A DNA stretch of 12,589 bases, from positions 1-12,589 of the forward strand of contig CASBQH010000312.1 of assembly GCA_949127695.1 (NCBI GenBank). The letters are read 5' to 3'. The translations under genes and the position numbers were made by a program. Below, piece by piece: positions 2,810 through 12,589 of the stretch. Below the pieces are notes generated by a model, which saw only the letters and a list, made by a program, of their open reading frames with translations, was not told the DNA's origin and ran no database searches. This stretch comes from Synechococcales cyanobacterium PMM_0073 (lineage in GTDB: Bacteria > Cyanobacteriota > Cyanobacteriia > Elainellales > Elainellaceae). Each line of letters begins with the position of its first letter. The stretch's first letter is position 1.

Positions 2810-4171
2810 TTAGCCAAACAGCTTCAGCGCCAGCGAAATTAGGCTGAGAAAGGTCAGAAATCCCACAGCATCTAGCGTTGTGGTCAGCAGCGGGCCGCTG
2901 ATTAAAGCTGGGTCAAGCTTCAGCCGCTTCAGCCCCATTGGCAGCAATGTGCCCAGACTCGCCGCCACAAAGACGTTAAGTACCATCACCAGTCCGGCCA
3001 CAATTGCGACCCAGCGCTCTGAAGGCAATGCCCAGACCAGCGACAGAATCGCCAGTGCCGCTCCCAGCGCCACCGCCGTCCCCAGACCCGCCAACAGCTC
3101 CTTCCGCAGAATTTTCAGCGTGTCGGCTTGGGTGACTTCGCCCACGCCCAGCCCGCGCACCGTCACCGAAAGCGCCTGAATCCCGACGTTGCCGCTGGCG
3201 TTGGATAAAATTGGCATCACAACCGCCAGAACGGGCACCAGCGAAATCACATGCTGAAACGGGGCAATCGCGCTGGCTGCGCCCAGATAGAGGCCAATAT
3301 TGCCCAACAGCCAGGGCAGCCGCTTGCGAAGCGTCACCTGCGGCGAACAGAGCGCCGCCTCGTCGCCGCCGCTCACCCCGGCCAGCTTTTGGATATCTTC
3401 GGTGGCTTCTTCTTCCAGCACATCCACCATGTCGTCAATGGTGACAATACCCACCAGGCGATTCTCGCGGTCTACCACCGGTATGGCAATCAGGTCATAG
3501 CGCTTCATGATCTGCGCCACTTCTTCCTGCCGCATCTCGGTGTAGGCTTTGATCACCCGGGTGCTGGCAATATCGTCAATTCGGGTAGTCGGAATAGTAA
3601 ACAACAGCTGCCGCAGCGAGACAACCCGCACCAGCCGCCGCTGGTCGTCAATTACATAGGCATAGTAAATGGTCTCTTTGTCTTCGTCACTGCGCCGAAT
3701 TTTCTCCAGCGCTTCGCCCACGGTCATGCCGTCGCGGAGCTGCACATATTCGGTGGTCATTAGCCGACCCGCTGTGCCTTCGGCGTAGCCCAAAATGGTG
3801 GCAGTCGCCTGCCGCTCAGCCGGACTCAGCTGTTGCAGCAAGCGCTTAACAATCCGGGCGGGCAGCTCGTCAAATAGCTCAGCTCGATCGTCAGGCCGCA
3901 TCGCTTCGACCAGATGCCGCACGTCGGCAGCTTGCAAAGAGCTGATCAGCTCTTCCTGGATCTCGCTGGGCAGATATTCAAACACATCCGTGGCCACGTC
4001 TTTACGCAGCAGCCGAAACGCAATCGCTCGACTTTCAAAGGTCATTTTTACGATTTGGTCACAGATATCAATCGCCGGAAGCTGGCTGAGTTCCCATTTC
4101 ATCTGGTTCAGGCCAGCGACTTCCGAGCCAACATCTGCCCAAGAAATCTGCTTCTCTGGGATCGTGAGCAT
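2810..4171 (-). CDS. mgtE: MgtE magnesium channel/transporter
   Basis: The 453-residue length and domain order match MgtE. Residues about 30-135 are the helical superhelix N domain (repeats such as LPSEIQEELISSL and MRPDDRAELFDEL). Residues about 137-260 are a CBS pair (GRLMTTEYVQLRDGMTVGEA; YDLIAIPVVDRENRLVGIVT), which in characterised MgtE binds Mg2+ and closes the pore when cytosolic Mg2+ is high. Residues about 285-453 are the membrane pore domain with five hydrophobic helices and hallmark motifs: ILSNASGNVGIQ (321-332) and DPALISGPLLTTTLDAVG (420-437), whose acidic residue faces the ion path in known structures. MgtE imports Mg2+ as a dimer. The ATG at 4171 is well supported by AGGAGG 5 nt upstream. 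A 175-nt structured leader with a small ORF precedes it, suggesting post-transcriptional control. Paralogues with other ion preferences exist, but nothing here argues against Mg2+. Confidence 0.95.
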   Translation of the reverse strand: MLTIPEKQISWADVGSEVAGLNQMKWELSQLPAIDICDQIVKMTFESRAIAFRLLRKDVATDVFEYLPSEIQEELISSLQAADVRHLVEAMRPDDRAELFDELPARIVKRLLQQLSPAERQATATILGYAEGTAGRLMTTEYVQLRDGMTVGEALEKIRRSDEDKETIYYAYVIDDQRRLVRVVSLRQLLFTIPTTRIDDIASTRVIKAYTEMRQEEVAQIMKRYDLIAIPVVDRENRLVGIVTIDDMVDVLEEEATEDIQKLAGVSGGDEAALCSPQVTLRKRLPWLLGNIGLYLGAASAIAPFQHVISLVPVLAVVMPILSNASGNVGIQALSVTVRGLGVGEVTQADTLKILRKELLAGLGTAVALGAALAILSLVWALPSERWVAIVAGLVMVLNVFVAASLGTLLPMGLKRLKLDPALISGPLLTTTLDAVGFLTFLSLISLALKLFG

Positions 4172-4176
4172 GGCAA

Positions 4177-4182
4177 CCTCCT
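4177..4182 (-). promoter_or_regulatory. mgtE Shine-Dalgarno AGGAGG, beside a stable hairpin
   Basis: The minus strand reads AGGAGG with 5 nt to the mgtE ATG, the strongest ribosome-binding site in the window. It lies 4 nt downstream of a 9-pair hairpin. Its GGAGG core can also pair (four Watson-Crick plus one G-U) with either of two upstream CCUCUC elements at 4203-4208 and 4225-4230. Confidence 0.8.
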
Positions 4183-4345
4183 ATTTCAACCTCTCCCGCG
4201 CTGAGAGGCTGGCTCACCCGCTTAGAGAGGAACTGTACTATGTGGGGATGGACTAGGGTCCATGAGTTCTCTAAATTCAACATCGATGCCGCCCAGGGGC
4301 ATTGCATCGCTACCGTACATAGTACCCTCGGATCGGTACATTTGT
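4183..4345 (-). ncRNA. Candidate structured 5' leader RNA of mgtE
   Basis: Read on the minus strand, this stretch holds several helices. First is CGATGC/GCATCG enclosing GCC/GGC (4284-4309). Next is a perfect 6-pair hairpin ATGGAC-CCTA-GTCCAT (4248-4263). It is enclosed by a long helix pairing TTAGAG-AACT (4265-4274) with AGTT-cct-CTCTAA (4222-4234), 10 pairs with a 3-nt bulge. Last is CAGCCTCTC/GAGAGGTTG (4187-4211), whose G-U pair is only a pair in the minus-strand RNA. CCUCUC occurs twice (4203-4208, 4225-4230), so GAGAGG (4190-4195) and the SD have competing partners. I do not recognise a known riboswitch (it does not look like M-box or yybP-ykoY to my eye). No U-run follows the last hairpin, so control of translation is likelier than intrinsic termination. 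The fold was derived by hand, without energy calculation. Confidence 0.45.
4222..4320 (-). CDS. Putative mgtL-like leader peptide, 32 codons, upstream of mgtE
   Basis: ATG at 4320 is preceded by GAGGG (4325-4329), with 5 nt between GAGG and the ATG. The frame runs 32 codons to TAA at 4222-4224, 50 nt before the mgtE start and in a different frame. The peptide begins MYGSDAMPLGGIDVEF and ends MDPSPSPHSTVPL. The last 13 residues also form an ORF of their own from the internal ATG at 4263, with a weaker AGAG 5 nt upstream. Known biology: the enterobacterial mgtA leader encodes MgtL (MEPDPTPLP...), whose acidic and proline codons make ribosomes stall or fall off when Mg2+ or proline is low. The internal peptide has prolines at 3, 5 and 7, the same spacing. 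The stop codon and last two codons (Pro-Leu, CCU CUC) lie inside the long leader helix. Translation is not proven and so short an ORF can arise by chance. Confidence 0.45.
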   Translation of the reverse strand: MYGSDAMPLGGIDVEFRELMDPSPSPHSTVPL

Positions 4346-7168: not shown

Positions 7169-7290
7169 TCCCGACGCTGATGCTACGCATACAGCGCGGG
7201 CTTCTCAAGATCGCTCCTGAGACTTTCCTGCTTCACTCGGTCTTGTCTAGGCAGTGCCCCCGACAGATCCCGTCCACAGGCAATTTCTTC
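7169..7290 (-). ncRNA. Candidate omega-RNA (reRNA) at the tnpB 3' end
   Basis: TnpB nucleases use a guide RNA transcribed from the 3' end of tnpB and the element's right end. Here the minus strand shows, in order, TGTC/GACA enclosing GGC/GCC (7244-7265), TCTCA/TGAGA (7203-7222), and a terminal hairpin CCCG-CGCTG / CAGCG-T-CGGG (7170-7200) with inner stem ATGC/GCAT around GTA. The tnpB stop codon overlaps that inner loop, so coding and RNA functions overlap. The guide would begin near 7168, in flanking DNA. The 5' limit is approximate. Structure was assessed by eye. Confidence 0.5.
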
Positions 7291-8487
7291 CACGATGAGT
7301 CCCACCGCAGAGAGTCCACGATTCCGGATCACTTGACCGCTAGCAATATCTCTAGGCTTGGTTGATCCACACTCAGGGCAATGATGAACCCGAACACTCA
7401 GATCCTTTTTGACTACAGCGCCACAGTCCGGGCATTCCTGGCTTGTGCCATTTGGATCAACTTTGCCGTAGTAGACATCCCGCTTCCAGCAGACCCAGCT
7501 CAGAATTTGATTTACAAACTGCCCCAAGCCAGCATCCAGAGTATGCTTACCCAGCATCCCCTTAGCCATAATGCGGAAATCAAGATCTTCGACAAAGATC
7601 ATTCCGGCATTGTCGCAGAGACGATGAGCCAGTTGAAAGTGAAAATCACGGCGGCAGTTTGCAATTTGCTCATGCAGTCTGCCAATCTTCTGGTTCAACT
7701 TGCGGCGGTTAGACGAGCCTTTTTGCTTGCTTTTTAGCCTGCGTTGCAGCAATTCCAGCTTGCGTTGCAGTTGATTAAAGAAGCGAGGCCGCTTGACCTG
7801 CTCACCGTCAGAAGTGGACAGAAAATACTCCAGCCCGACATCAACACCCATCGCATGACCCTGCGGGATAGAGTCAGGAACACTGACATCCATCTGCACG
7901 GCCAGCGAAACATACCACCCCGACGCTTTACGGACAATTCGAGCCGTTTTCAGCTTAAATCCGCTAGGTATAGGGCGGTGCATATTGATGGCGACCTTGC
8001 CAACTTTGGGCAGTTTGATGAGGCAGCGCGTTGCGGGGGTTCCCCCCGTTGTAGCGACTGCCGTCTGGTTCTCCGTAATGACATCGCTGTCAATCTGGGG
8101 AAACAGAAACGATCTGAACTGTCCAAACTTTTTGAATCTAGGAAAGCCGTGACCACGCTGCTTCATAGAGGCAAAAGCAGAGTCAACCCTGCCAATCACA
8201 TCTTGCAGCACCTGCGAGTGAACAGCTTTCAGCCCTGGATTCGTTTTCTTGGCTTCACTCAGCGCCTTCTTCTGCCTGTAGTAGTCAGGGTAAGGCGCAT
8301 CTGCCGGGATGATGTACTCAGACTGGAGAGAGCAGGCATTTACCGAGCATTTGCGACTGGCAATCCAGTCCTTACGCTCTCGCAGCGCATAGTTATAGAC
8401 TCTGCGGCAAGACTCCAGCCAATCGGTCATCTGGAGTTCTTGCTGCAAGTCTGGATAAATGCGGTAGCGGTAGGTCAATGTCAGCAT
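7183..8487 (-). CDS. tnpB: TnpB RNA-guided endonuclease of an IS200/IS605-type element
   Basis: 434 residues, full length for TnpB. The N-terminal region starts MLTLTYRYRIYPDLQQ, as is usual for the family, followed by an arginine-rich helical part. The RuvC nuclease motifs are complete: Asp216 (GVDVGL), Glu300 (FVEDLDF) and Asp380 (PRDIASGQVIRNRG). The four-cysteine zinc knuckle is Cys352/Cys355 and Cys370/Cys373. The protein should therefore be catalytically competent. Characterised TnpB proteins cut DNA matching the guide of their own omega-RNA next to a short transposon-associated motif, which helps keep the element in the genome. No tnpA is adjacent. The SD before the ATG at 8487 is weak, common for these genes. 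The last codons run into the terminal hairpin. I see no frameshift, so the copy is intact and possibly recent. Confidence 0.95.
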   Translation of the reverse strand: MLTLTYRYRIYPDLQQELQMTDWLESCRRVYNYALRERKDWIASRKCSVNACSLQSEYIIPADAPYPDYYRQKKALSEAKKTNPGLKAVHSQVLQDVIGRVDSAFASMKQRGHGFPRFKKFGQFRSFLFPQIDSDVITENQTAVATTGGTPATRCLIKLPKVGKVAINMHRPIPSGFKLKTARIVRKASGWYVSLAVQMDVSVPDSIPQGHAMGVDVGLEYFLSTSDGEQVKRPRFFNQLQRKLELLQRRLKSKQKGSSNRRKLNQKIGRLHEQIANCRRDFHFQLAHRLCDNAGMIFVEDLDFRIMAKGMLGKHTLDAGLGQFVNQILSWVCWKRDVYYGKVDPNGTSQECPDCGAVVKKDLSVRVHHCPECGSTKPRDIASGQVIRNRGLSAVGLIVEEIACGRDLSGALPRQDRVKQESLRSDLEKPALYA

Positions 8488-10232: not shown

Positions 10233-12589
10233 TTAAAACAGCTCTTCGCTAGCTTCTGCTTCACTGTTGGTGTTCCGGGACGGCGTTTCGCGCAGGAACT
10301 TGAGATGCACGGCTCTGCTCTGCTCGCCATCAGCGGCAACTGCATGGATGGGAAAGTCAATCAAGCCATCTTGGAATGATATCTGGAAGCGGAACGTGCC
10401 ATCTGGGTTAAGCTGAACCGGACGCCCGCCAATGGTGACAGTGGCATCTGGCTCGGTAGCTCCATAGACAATTAGCTCGGCATCGCCAATCATCCAAAAT
10501 TTGCGCGAGCGTTCTGGGGGAATAGAGGCTGACATGCCAATTCCTGACATGCCAATTCCTGACATGCCCATACCTGACATGCCAATGCCTGACATACCCA
10601 TACCTGATGTGGTGTACATACCGTATATTCCCGCGCCTGACATGCCCATCCCAGATGTCGTATACATACCTGCACCTGACATACCTGCACCTGACATACC
10701 CATGCCTGATGTATTGTACATGCCGATTCCCGACATCATGCCTGCGCCGGACATTGTTGGGATTGGCATTCCTGCACCTGACATGCCCATGCCTGATGCG
10801 GTGTACATGCCGATGCCTGACATGCCGATGCCTGACATGCCCATCCCCGACATCGTATACATACCCGCACCTGACATCATCCCCGCACCTGACATCCCCA
10901 CGCCTGATGTGGTGTACATGCCGATGCCTGACATCATACCCACGCCTGACATTGTTGGGATTGACATGCCGATTCCTGACATGCCGATGCCTGATGTGGT
11001 GTACATGCCGACTCCCGACATCATTCCCGCGCCTGACATGCCAATTCCTGACATGCCAATTCCTGACATGCTCATCCCCGGCATTGTATACATGCCTGCG
11101 CCTGACATGCCCATCCCTGATGTCGTATACATGCTGATTCCTGACATCATGCCTTCGCCTGACATCATTCCTACACCCGACATGCCGTACAGACCTGCGC
11201 CCGACATACCTATGCCAGACATTGTTGGGATTGACATACCTGCGCTCGACATACCCATACCCGACATCTCCCCGATGCCTGACATTCCTATACCTGACAT
11301 GCCCATCCCCGATGTCGTATACATGCCTACACCGGACATGCCAACACCTGATGTCGTATACATGCCGATTCCCGACATCATTCCCACACCTGATACCGTT
11401 GAAGTTGAGGTGTCTGATATGCCAATGCCAGACATGCCAATGCCAGACATGCCAATACCAGACAGGCCAATGCCAGACTCCGTTTTGCTCCCCATCCCAG
11501 AGGCTAGAGCAAAAGAGCTGACGGCAGGCACCTGCTGCATTGAACCAACCAGCGAGCCTGCAACATGCTCAACTTCAATTGCCTCACTGGGTTGGCTAGC
11601 TTGCTCAGAAATGGAGCTGCCAAAGCTAGTTTTCTGGGCTGGCGAAACCAGATTACCAAAAGACTGAGCGCTCAGATTCTCTTCCCATTCAATGGTGACA
11701 AACTGCTCTTCATACCAATCGGTTGCATAGATTGGCGGCACCCGCACCGGATTTGAGCGCGTCAGCAGCAGCCAGCGGCCATCCTCCGTCACATAGCCCA
11801 GCTCAGCCACATAGTCACGGTCACTCACCGGCACCGGAATATACCAGTTGCGGGCTAGCTCATCACATTCATATTGCTGGAGGCTATGCGGATTTGAGCG
11901 GGCATCTGTAATATCGTAAAAGCGCAGCGCAAACCGCTGACCGCCTTGCTGCCTGAGCGCCTGCTTATGCAGATCGGGCGCGTCCCAATAGGCATAGACC
12001 CACTGCGGATCGCGCGGCAGCAGTACAATCTGGCTCTCGCCATAGCCCATGGGCAGCTCCGGCAAATTCTCGTCCACCGAAGCCAAAGCCCCTATGTTCA
12101 AGTCAGGCAGATTGGGCGACAGATTGGGCGATAGATTAGGCGGCGGCGCGACAAATTTGGTAGCAGTCGCCGCAGTTTGAGCTAGTCCGGTTGAAGCCGG
12201 GGTCGACAGCCGCACAGCATTTGAGCGCGCCAGACTGAGCCAGCGCTGAGTAGGCGTCCAGTAGCCAATTTCGGCCACATAGTCATGATCAAATTCGGGC
12301 ACGGGCAGAGTCTGGCTTTGATCTGATTCAGCGCAGCCATAGTCAGAAACCGCAGGCAGCAGCGACTGCTGTAAATCGCTTGCGCCAGTAGCATCATAGA
12401 GCCGCAGCGTAAATTGGTTGCCACCCTGCTGACGCAGCTGCGCTTTTTCAGCTTCTGGAGCCTCCCAATCTGCCAGTATTTGCTCAGCATCATAGGGCGA
12501 GAGTCGAATGCGGCTCTGCTGGCGGCGACCCGCAGCAACTCCCACAGCGGCGGTTCCCACAGCAGCTCCCAGCGCGGCAGCTCCAATAC
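10233..12589 (-). CDS. Tandem DUF4912 protein with methionine-rich repeat, 5' end missing
   Basis: The frame is open to the right edge. The first possible start inside the window is GTG at 12560, but the codons before it read IGAAALGAAV and continue as GTAAVGVAAG. This Gly/Ala-rich, probably membrane-spanning stretch suggests that the real start lies outside. Numbering from the GTG, residues about 17-121 and 176-275 are two DUF4912 domains. They align closely (LRQQGGNQFTLRLYD / LRQQGGQRFALRFYD; DYVAEIGY / DYVAELGY; RSNAVRLS / RSNPVRVP), implying internal duplication; the first has lost the usual RDPxWxxxYWD start. A linker with PNLS repeats joins them. Residues about 362-680 are Met/Gly/Ser pentad repeats. 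Residues about 687-775 (FWMIGDAELIVYGATEPDAT, GGRPVQLNPDGTFRF, FPIHAVAADGEQSRAVHLKF) are the conserved C-terminal module, an Ig-like beta fold by appearance. The function of DUF4912 proteins is unknown. The C-terminus is complete, ending at TAA. Confidence 0.85.
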   Translation of the reverse strand, partial: IGAAALGAAVGTAAVGVAAGRRQQSRIRLSPYDAEQILADWEAPEAEKAQLRQQGGNQFTLRLYDATGASDLQQSLLPAVSDYGCAESDQSQTLPVPEFDHDYVAEIGYWTPTQRWLSLARSNAVRLSTPASTGLAQTAATATKFVAPPPNLSPNLSPNLPDLNIGALASVDENLPELPMGYGESQIVLLPRDPQWVYAYWDAPDLHKQALRQQGGQRFALRFYDITDARSNPHSLQQYECDELARNWYIPVPVSDRDYVAELGYVTEDGRWLLLTRSNPVRVPPIYATDWYEEQFVTIEWEENLSAQSFGNLVSPAQKTSFGSSISEQASQPSEAIEVEHVAGSLVGSMQQVPAVSSFALASGMGSKTESGIGLSGIGMSGIGMSGIGISDTSTSTVSGVGMMSGIGMYTTSGVGMSGVGMYTTSGMGMSGIGMSGIGEMSGMGMSSAGMSIPTMSGIGMSGAGLYGMSGVGMMSGEGMMSGISMYTTSGMGMSGAGMYTMPGMSMSGIGMSGIGMSGAGMMSGVGMYTTSGIGMSGIGMSIPTMSGVGMMSGIGMYTTSGVGMSGAGMMSGAGMYTMSGMGMSGIGMSGIGMYTASGMGMSGAGMPIPTMSGAGMMSGIGMYNTSGMGMSGAGMSGAGMYTTSGMGMSGAGIYGMYTTSGMGMSGIGMSGMGMSGIGMSGIGMSASIPPERSRKFWMIGDAELIVYGATEPDATVTIGGRPVQLNPDGTFRFQISFQDGLIDFPIHAVAADGEQSRAVHLKFLRETPSRNTNSEAEASEELF
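10521..11477 (-). repeat. 15-bp coding minisatellite encoding Met-Ser-Gly-x-Gly pentads
   Basis: About 320 codons are built from MSGxG (x = Ile, Val, Ala, Met), interrupted by MYTTSGxG (seven exact MYTTSG plus variants), MMSGxG and SIPTMSG spacers. By hand count about 69 of 320 residues are Met, with no Cys and almost no charge (two Glu and one Asp). Units are multiples of 3 bp, so copy-number change keeps the frame. The complementary strand is also open over the array (a Pro-Asp-Met-Pro pattern); I regard that as a by-product of the repeat. Confidence 0.9.
12109..12144 (-). repeat. Three 12-bp tandem units in the inter-domain linker
   Basis: AGATTGGGCGAC, AGATTGGGCGAT and a diverged AGATTAGGCGGC lie head to tail on the plus strand. 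On the coding strand they give PNLSPNLSPNL, lengthening the proline-rich linker between the two DUF4912 domains of the same gene. Confidence 0.8.

Follow-up and report, generated by a model that had tools for sequence, protein, structure and literature searches.

A conserved 13-codon leader ORF and a candidate translation-coupled RNA switch upstream of mgtE in cyanobacteria

In Synechococcales cyanobacterium PMM_0073 and its relatives, mgtE is preceded by a conserved leader containing a 13-codon open reading frame (ORF) which, on comparative sequence evidence, is very probably real and translated. Comparison and folding models also suggest that this ORF is probably coupled to a switch acting on translation of mgtE, whatever the sign of control and whatever the signal. 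Cyanobacterial photosynthesis relies heavily on Mg2+ (chlorophyll, Rubisco).

Organization of the mgtE leader

The stretch of DNA analysed (the window; 12,589 nucleotides) carries mgtE at 2810..4171 on the minus strand, where all leader features described below also lie. Its 453 codons encode MgtE_N, CBS and MgtE domains, and the product matches the TIGR00400 mgtE equivalog profile with 378.8 bits (cut-off 232.75). The upstream neighbour of the leader is, by eye, a GGDEF/EAL-like ORF. The whole leader element (4181..4314) matches covariance model R1 with 104.3 bits, a score to be read knowing that the window's own leader (L001) is among the 47 sequences used to build R1.

A predicted -10 box, TACTAT (4319..4324), is aligned with a TANNAT box kept in relatives, where it lies just 5' of a conserved hairpin. 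From the sequence, the transcript is predicted to start near 4312, which would give a leader RNA of about 130 nt. Its predicted 5' end is formed by the P1 hairpin, CGATGC / GCATCG (4284..4309), with double-sided changes in 4 of 5 pairs (helices 1 and 2). The leader ORF (4222..4263), for which the evidence is comparative, has 13 codons and encodes MDPSPSPHSTVPL, followed by a stop codon. Hairpin H (UGGAC NNNA GUCCA; 4248..4263) spans ORF codons 1-5, with the start codon at its foot. At the end of the ORF lies a pyrimidine tract, here called segment 1 (4225..4230; CCTCTC in the window, CCTCCT in many relatives). Segment 2 (4213..4221) adjoins the stop codon and is GCGGGTGAG in the window and CCTGGTGAG or GCTGGTGAG in many relatives; it is the alternative-fold partner of segment 3. 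Segments 3 and 4 form hairpin B (4188..4210), just 5' of the mgtE ribosome-binding site, with double-sided changes in 6 of 7 pairs. Duplex energy calculation gives TAGGAGG (4177..4183) as the mgtE Shine-Dalgarno sequence, with a mean energy of -9.1 kcal/mol and values of -4 kcal/mol or lower in 71/71 leaders. The Shine-Dalgarno sequence of the leader ORF itself is weak, reaching -4 kcal/mol or lower in 10/71.

The initial annotation had rightly seen a short ORF directly 5' of mgtE, in the form of a 32-codon frame (4320..4222) that ends with MDPSPSPHSTVPL and a stop codon, with GAGG (4329-4326) as its ribosome site. As a unit, this longer frame was rejected. Its ATG at 4320 lies within the predicted -10 box and GAGG is further 5' still, off the predicted transcript; the 32-codon ORF should therefore be absent from the mRNA. 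Nor is its start conserved across leaders. Among 97 distinct leaders, the 60 nt preceding the internal ATG contain an in-frame stop in 79 and some in-frame ATG in 23, but only five (L001, L002, L004, L009 and L045) have an in-frame ATG at least 15 codons upstream.

Conservation and distribution of the leader

The leader is closely linked to one type of mgtE. Comparison of 110 mgtE loci (30 from relatives and 80 from named genomes, with some genomes in both sets) revealed the motif ATGG(A/G)(C/T)NNNNGTCC upstream of mgtE in 108, and a variant in L008 has GTGGAC, with an in-frame ATG one codon earlier. The leader element is thus present at 109 of the 110 loci; by motif scan and R1 it is absent from L063. 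Strain PCC 7414 (muscicola; L073) is among its carriers. Alignment A1 holds 57 of the 71 leaders that are less than about 90% alike, the others being five with long insertions (L009, L011, L012, L019 and L024) and nine near relatives of other members. R1 was built from 47 of these 57, leaving aside ten with odd P1 or spacers. Because R1 was built from leaders carrying the ATG, its matches are no independent test of the start codon.

A search of 386 cyanobacterial genomes with R1, using stricter filters and scoring eight candidates per genome, gave matches in 42 genomes, one in each. This type of mgtE (E ≤ 1e-110) occurs in 43 of 386 genomes, the same 42 and G343, the only genome of this phylum-wide set in which the linkage fails; the remaining 343 genomes have neither an R1 match nor this mgtE type. 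The two samples of 386 are taken as identical, as their sizes agree and so do all listed handles, which include a minority of the genomes lacking a match. By coordinates all 42 matches adjoin mgtE, the mgtE match in G352 being a fragment 532 nt away. At the family level R1 matches 27 of 36 genomes, namely those whose best mgtE is at least 76% identical; in the other nine the best mgtE is at most 48% identical or there is none. R1 matched none of 17 regions upstream of distant mgtE paralogues (34-47% identical), and a search of plasmid records with the leader gave no match.

No Rfam family reaches its gathering score within the window. In the main texts of open-licence PubMed Central papers, no report of the element was found among the matches listed.

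Some distant loci look different. Both L141 (G343) and L063 have this mgtE type and are R1-negative, and the DNA preceding the match looks different. L142 (1-611, G048), also R1-negative, has by eye a TTG-started 13-codon ORF ending CTC CTC TAG before mgtE, with a GGGC AGUA GCUC hairpin at the ORF start (by eye); from its sequence it is perhaps a diverged form of the leader. L143, a distant leader, has a TTG start and an in-frame insertion, its codons being read by eye.

Conservation of the leader ORF as a reading frame

The first stop in frame 0 yields 13 codons in 75 of 95 distinct ATG-to-mgtE stretches and 10 to 20 in the rest. Since this length is uninformative by itself, the case for the ORF is comparative. 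When the search left the first base of the start codon open, 114 of 115 distinct leaders had A there; the base able to pair with it in hairpin H is C in 46/95 and A in 6/95. In A1, 57/57 leaders reach a complete stop codon ahead of hairpin B when read in frame 0; for frames 1 and 2 the numbers are 15 and 46. A looser hairpin-B pattern gave 78/81 in frame 0 and 31 and 65 in the other frames.

Insertions and deletions also respect the frame. The ATG-to-tract length is identical in 50 of 57 leaders and differs by a multiple of three in five more, so that frame is kept in 55/57; in the flanking spacers the most frequent frame class comprises 29 and 33 of 57. The remaining two, L017 and L027, have an in-frame stop earlier than the tract. 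In L011, outside A1, the usual stop is out of frame and the ORF ends two codons later.

Codons 1-13 are free of stops in 108 distinct leaders, and at codon 14 these have 43 TAA, 30 TGA, 21 TAG and 14 other codons. TGG does not occur there, whereas independent variation of the two purines would predict it 6.7 times. L026, the only member of A1 with TGG at the stop position, has an in-frame TAA earlier on.

Synonymous changes, counted in the 13-codon class (93 tips), are in modest excess: 73 of 207 in codons 6-13 against 57.8 ± 5.7 expected (P = 0.007), and 67 of 181 in codons 6-11 against 55.9 ± 4.8 (P = 0.0145). Taken separately, codons 6-8 (P = 0.08) and codons 10-11 (P = 0.23) show no significant excess, indicating that much of the conservation is of RNA.

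The leader peptide

The usual form of the peptide is MDxSP...LL-stop, with 13 codons. Asp2 is present in 88 of 95 distinct leaders, Gly replacing it in the other seven, while Ser4 is kept in 93 and Pro5 in all 95. Leucine is the last residue in 72/95, and PP occurs in 13/95. Two acidic residues are found in 48 peptides, one in 40, three in six and none in one.

The window's peptide begins MDPSPSP, and the initial annotation had likened this region to MgtL. The Met-Asp start and the invariant Pro5 bear out part of that likeness, but codon 3 encodes Pro in only 7/95 leaders and Lys, Gln or Arg in 67/95. Alignment of the mgtE leaders of relatives, proposed there as a check on a conserved short ORF with a DPxPxP run and synonymous bias, confirmed the short ORF and the modest synonymous excess and did not recover the run. 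Likewise, an EPDP-like early acidic-proline run is not conserved among the 95 distinct leaders, in which strong acidic or proline runs are rare. Judged from these peptides, the likeness is real in kind (Met-acidic, early proline), with the best part of the MgtL resemblance limited to the window and a small number of relatives.

Two codons stand out for other reasons. Codon 3, in the loop of H, has G as first base or T as second base in 0/95 distinct leaders, a bias that could be due to loop chemistry or to avoidance of certain residues. Codon 9 is AGT, kept as a codon in 73/75, within a CAGTA motif unexplained by the helices found, and may be held by something at the RNA level.

Mutually exclusive RNA folds

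P1, H and B together are paired in 95.6% of cells, with a covariation of 0.280 compared with 0.188 in shuffles. Hairpin H is nearly invariant, with 100% of cells paired and no double-sided changes. Two alternative helices, exclusive with B, were also found. Pairing of segment 2 (CUGGUGAG, 3' of the stop codon) with segment 3, which is the 5' arm of B, holds in 93.7% of cells; 7 cells are changed on both sides where shuffles give 2.1, and the score was reached by 3/500 shuffles. Segment 1 pairs with segment 4, the 3' arm of B, in 88.9% of cells, its score being reached by 2/500; sliding 1:4 by one column gave 12 doubly changed cells versus 7. As shuffles ignore relatedness, these scores are support and not probabilities.

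Segment 1 is also complementary to the mgtE Shine-Dalgarno sequence, with 83.3% of cells paired. In contrast to 1:4, this pairing does not exceed shuffles, and the tract:Shine-Dalgarno pairing was rejected as a covarying helix. Also dropped was a 9-bp helix seen in folds of the window, GTACTATG / CATAGTAC, the 5' arm of which overlaps the -10 box and which is not in the RNAalifold consensus.

The ORF ends where a ribosome could influence the choice of fold. Between the stop codon and segment 2 there are 0-3 nt in 51/57 leaders and 8-11 nt in four, and in two the stop codon overlaps or passes segment 2, so a terminating ribosome would usually cover this segment. With a modelled ribosome at the stop codon, B rose from 0.33 to 0.58 and 2:3 was abolished. 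When folds were forced, the mean energies were -26.3 kcal/mol for B and -27.4 kcal/mol for 2:3, B being lower in 25/57. For B with tract:Shine-Dalgarno the mean was -21.2 kcal/mol, compared with -25.1 kcal/mol for 2:3 with 1:4, the former being lower in 15/57. In the window sequence alone B is preferred by 8.4 kcal/mol, and the switch therefore looks lopsided there. Folds of the window alone are weak relative to shuffles (z -0.51 and -1.40).

Level and sign of control

Translation is the likely level of control, since no Rho above cut-off and no terminator were found. None of 40 genomes had a protein over the TIGR00767 cut-off for Rho, 37 of them giving weak partial matches (the window's genome is 78% complete); in the control, 8 of 14 control genomes were over the cut-off, a search which bears on the presence of Rho and not on termination. 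A simple scan of the minus strand at 4171-4320 revealed no terminator-like site.

The sign is much less clear from folding. Accessibility of the mgtE Shine-Dalgarno sequence was 0.40 with the leader ribosome-free and 0.46 with a ribosome at the stop codon (0.43 and 0.47 in a second run). Ribosome position thus has little and inconsistent effect, and accessibility does not point clearly to one sign of control. A fold that would hide the mgtE ribosome-binding site is tract:Shine-Dalgarno, which is without covariation and for which the folding difference is modest. Pairing of the Shine-Dalgarno sequence with segment 1 was 0.33-0.38 with B forced and < 0.01 with 2:3 and 1:4 forced. Compared with B, the forced 2:3 and 1:4 fold left the Shine-Dalgarno sequence more open in 34/57 leaders and less open in 21; two other fold settings gave 34 more and 22 less, and 38 more and 17 less. 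These models lean slightly towards early failure of the ribosome turning mgtE on.

We propose that the leader is a translation-coupled RNA switch setting the efficiency of mgtE translation. A ribosome reaching the stop codon would cover segments 1 and 2, allowing hairpin B to form; upon its departure the freed pyrimidine tract would pair with the Shine-Dalgarno sequence and mgtE would be poorly translated. Early failure on Met-Asp-x-Ser-Pro would instead allow 1:4 and 2:3 to pair, keeping the tract off the Shine-Dalgarno sequence, so that mgtE would be well translated. Mg2+ is the likeliest signal because ribosomes translating early acidic and proline residues become less stable when Mg2+ is low; low Mg2+ would then cause early drop-off and more MgtE. 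Both the signal and the sign of control are inferred here, and sensing of Mg2+ through ribosome drop-off is in our judgement possible, falling somewhat short of probable.

Alternative explanations

A chance ORF in an ordinary 5' UTR is scarcely credible. Even though 13-codon ORFs are common and the 32-codon form is not conserved, the stops, indels, start base, codon 14 and synonymous changes all run against it. A more serious rival is an RNA-only element, in which the leader binds Mg2+, another ligand or a protein, H and CAGUA are the recognition site and the ORF is accidental. The near-invariance of H would follow naturally, the retention of AGT at codon 9 points to RNA, and by eye the tract is kept in leaders in which the ORF stops earlier (L013, L017, L019, L024 and L027). 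Such an element is nevertheless hard to square with a stop in frame in every A1 leader, with indels that are mostly in frame, with the absence of TGG at the stop position in leaders without an earlier stop and with some synonymous excess. The first base of the start codon is A almost without exception although its possible partner is C or A in 52/95, and L143 combines its TTG start with an insertion in frame (by eye). We therefore regard an RNA-only element as improbable.

Two further alternatives are variants within the class of ORF-coupled switches. The leader ORF may respond to a signal other than Mg2+, such as prolyl-tRNA supply, EF-P or the overall rate of translation; the control point would then be slow codons 2-5 or the final Leu-Leu-stop. 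The constancy of Pro5, the PP pairs and the frequent terminal leucine are compatible with this, and there is a precedent in mgtP, which responds to charged tRNA-Pro and is mentioned in PMC8092293. On the other hand, PP is confined to 13 peptides and a Mg2+ transporter is the sole gene to which the leader is linked in the genomes searched, making a different signal rather unlikely. The sign may also be the opposite one, with full translation and the terminating ribosome opening the mgtE site, as in classical translational coupling. The slight gain in Shine-Dalgarno accessibility with a ribosome at the stop codon is in its favour; this gain, however, is minor and does not hold consistently from leader to leader, and for a Mg2+ importer the known enteric cases fit the reverse sign. 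This variant is also unlikely, if the least so of these alternatives. Control in which early ribosome failure favours mgtE translation, with Mg2+ as the signal, remains our preferred reading.

Comparison with known leaders

Leader peptides of Mg2+ transporters, the frame of comparison chosen in the initial annotation, proved the right one, although the wrong ORF had been selected. The setting does recall that of mgtL, corL and mgtQ in enterobacteria, in that a hairpin overlaps the ORF and the ORF terminates next to RNA helices that exclude one another. Kinship with the MgtL leader itself was not borne out. The best weak Rfam match in the leader is Magnesium-II (RF01056), which scores 14.3 bits (E = 1.9) where the gathering score is 40, and R1 gave no matches in the E. 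coli mgtA region.

The closest parallel is with Salmonella mgtQ, in the mgtC-mgtB intergenic region. In mgtQ, as described in PMC8092293, an 8-codon ORF is translated less well because of Asp2 and Glu5, so that a helix freeing the mgtB site is favoured, with control at the level of translation. Both systems have a short ORF with Asp2 before a Mg2+ transporter gene, a stem-loop over the ORF, mutually exclusive helices and control at the translational and not the transcriptional level (likely in the cyanobacterial case), the cyanobacterial side of the comparison coming from sequence comparison and folding. Of the traits of an mgtQ-type leader, an early acidic residue (Asp2), MgtE downstream and exclusive helices, one of them within reach of a ribosome on the ORF, are found. 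By the same source, mgtQ differs in being an intergenic ORF of a PhoP-driven operon and in having a strong ribosome-binding site of its own. The cyanobacterial element lies in the 5' leader of a gene of the MgtE family rather than between mgtC and mgtB, and it has another peptide and another RNA, in another phylum.

The mgtL leader of mgtA is alike in its Met-acidic short ORF, early proline, downstream Mg2+ transporter and two RNA folds. There, according to PMC11282234, ribosomes that drop off on EPDP at low Mg2+ keep Rho-dependent termination from occurring, whereas Rho above cut-off was found in none of the 40 cyanobacterial genomes and the EPDP run is not conserved in cyanobacterial leaders. 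In the corL leader of corA (E. coli and Salmonella), translation of an upstream ORF is inversely tied to the Mg2+ transporter, and the peptide has few acidic or proline residues, a point of likeness; it differs in being Rho-dependent (PMC11552253), and the likeness is one of description and not of sequence. 

PMC2211319 notes a YKOK element preceding an mgtE-like gene. Like this M-box (ykoK) riboswitch, the cyanobacterial leader would control mgtE from its own leader, but it has a translated-looking ORF embedded in it and, within the window, no Rfam family at gathering score. Conserved short ORFs in structured leader RNAs are also found in odc1 (uORF-25-1) and other uORF motifs (PMC8632094); these concern other genes in other bacteria and are likened by description, not by RNA comparison. 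By analogy, and on present evidence, the cyanobacterial element would work most like mgtQ. Membership tests place it in none of mgtQ, mgtL and corL.

Significance

We tentatively suggest that cyanobacteria have independently evolved a Mg2+ sensor consisting of a ribosome on a Met-Asp-x-Ser-Pro leader, purely translational and Rho-free, with two exclusive folds controlling mgtE; this fuller proposal is a little more speculative than Mg2+ sensing by drop-off as such. If true, the use of ribosome stability during translation to sense Mg2+ would have at least two origins, involving peptides, RNAs and transporters that are unrelated, and could operate without Rho. Cyanobacteria would also gain a defined regulatory element for a Mg2+ channel. 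A 2016 survey (PMC4833913) states that there are no reliable data on attenuation in cyanobacteria, and the leader peptide would then be a conserved one in a phylum so described. The comparative data name the exact bases for mutation.

Other features of the window

Two neighbouring genes on the minus strand were also noted. A DUF4912 protein encoded at 10236-12560 has a long tail of MSGIGMSGAGMYTTSG-type repeats (repeats recognized by eye). At 7186-8487, adjoining an alpha/beta hydrolase gene, lies a gene for an IS605 OrfB/TnpB-type protein with a Cas12f1-like TNB domain.
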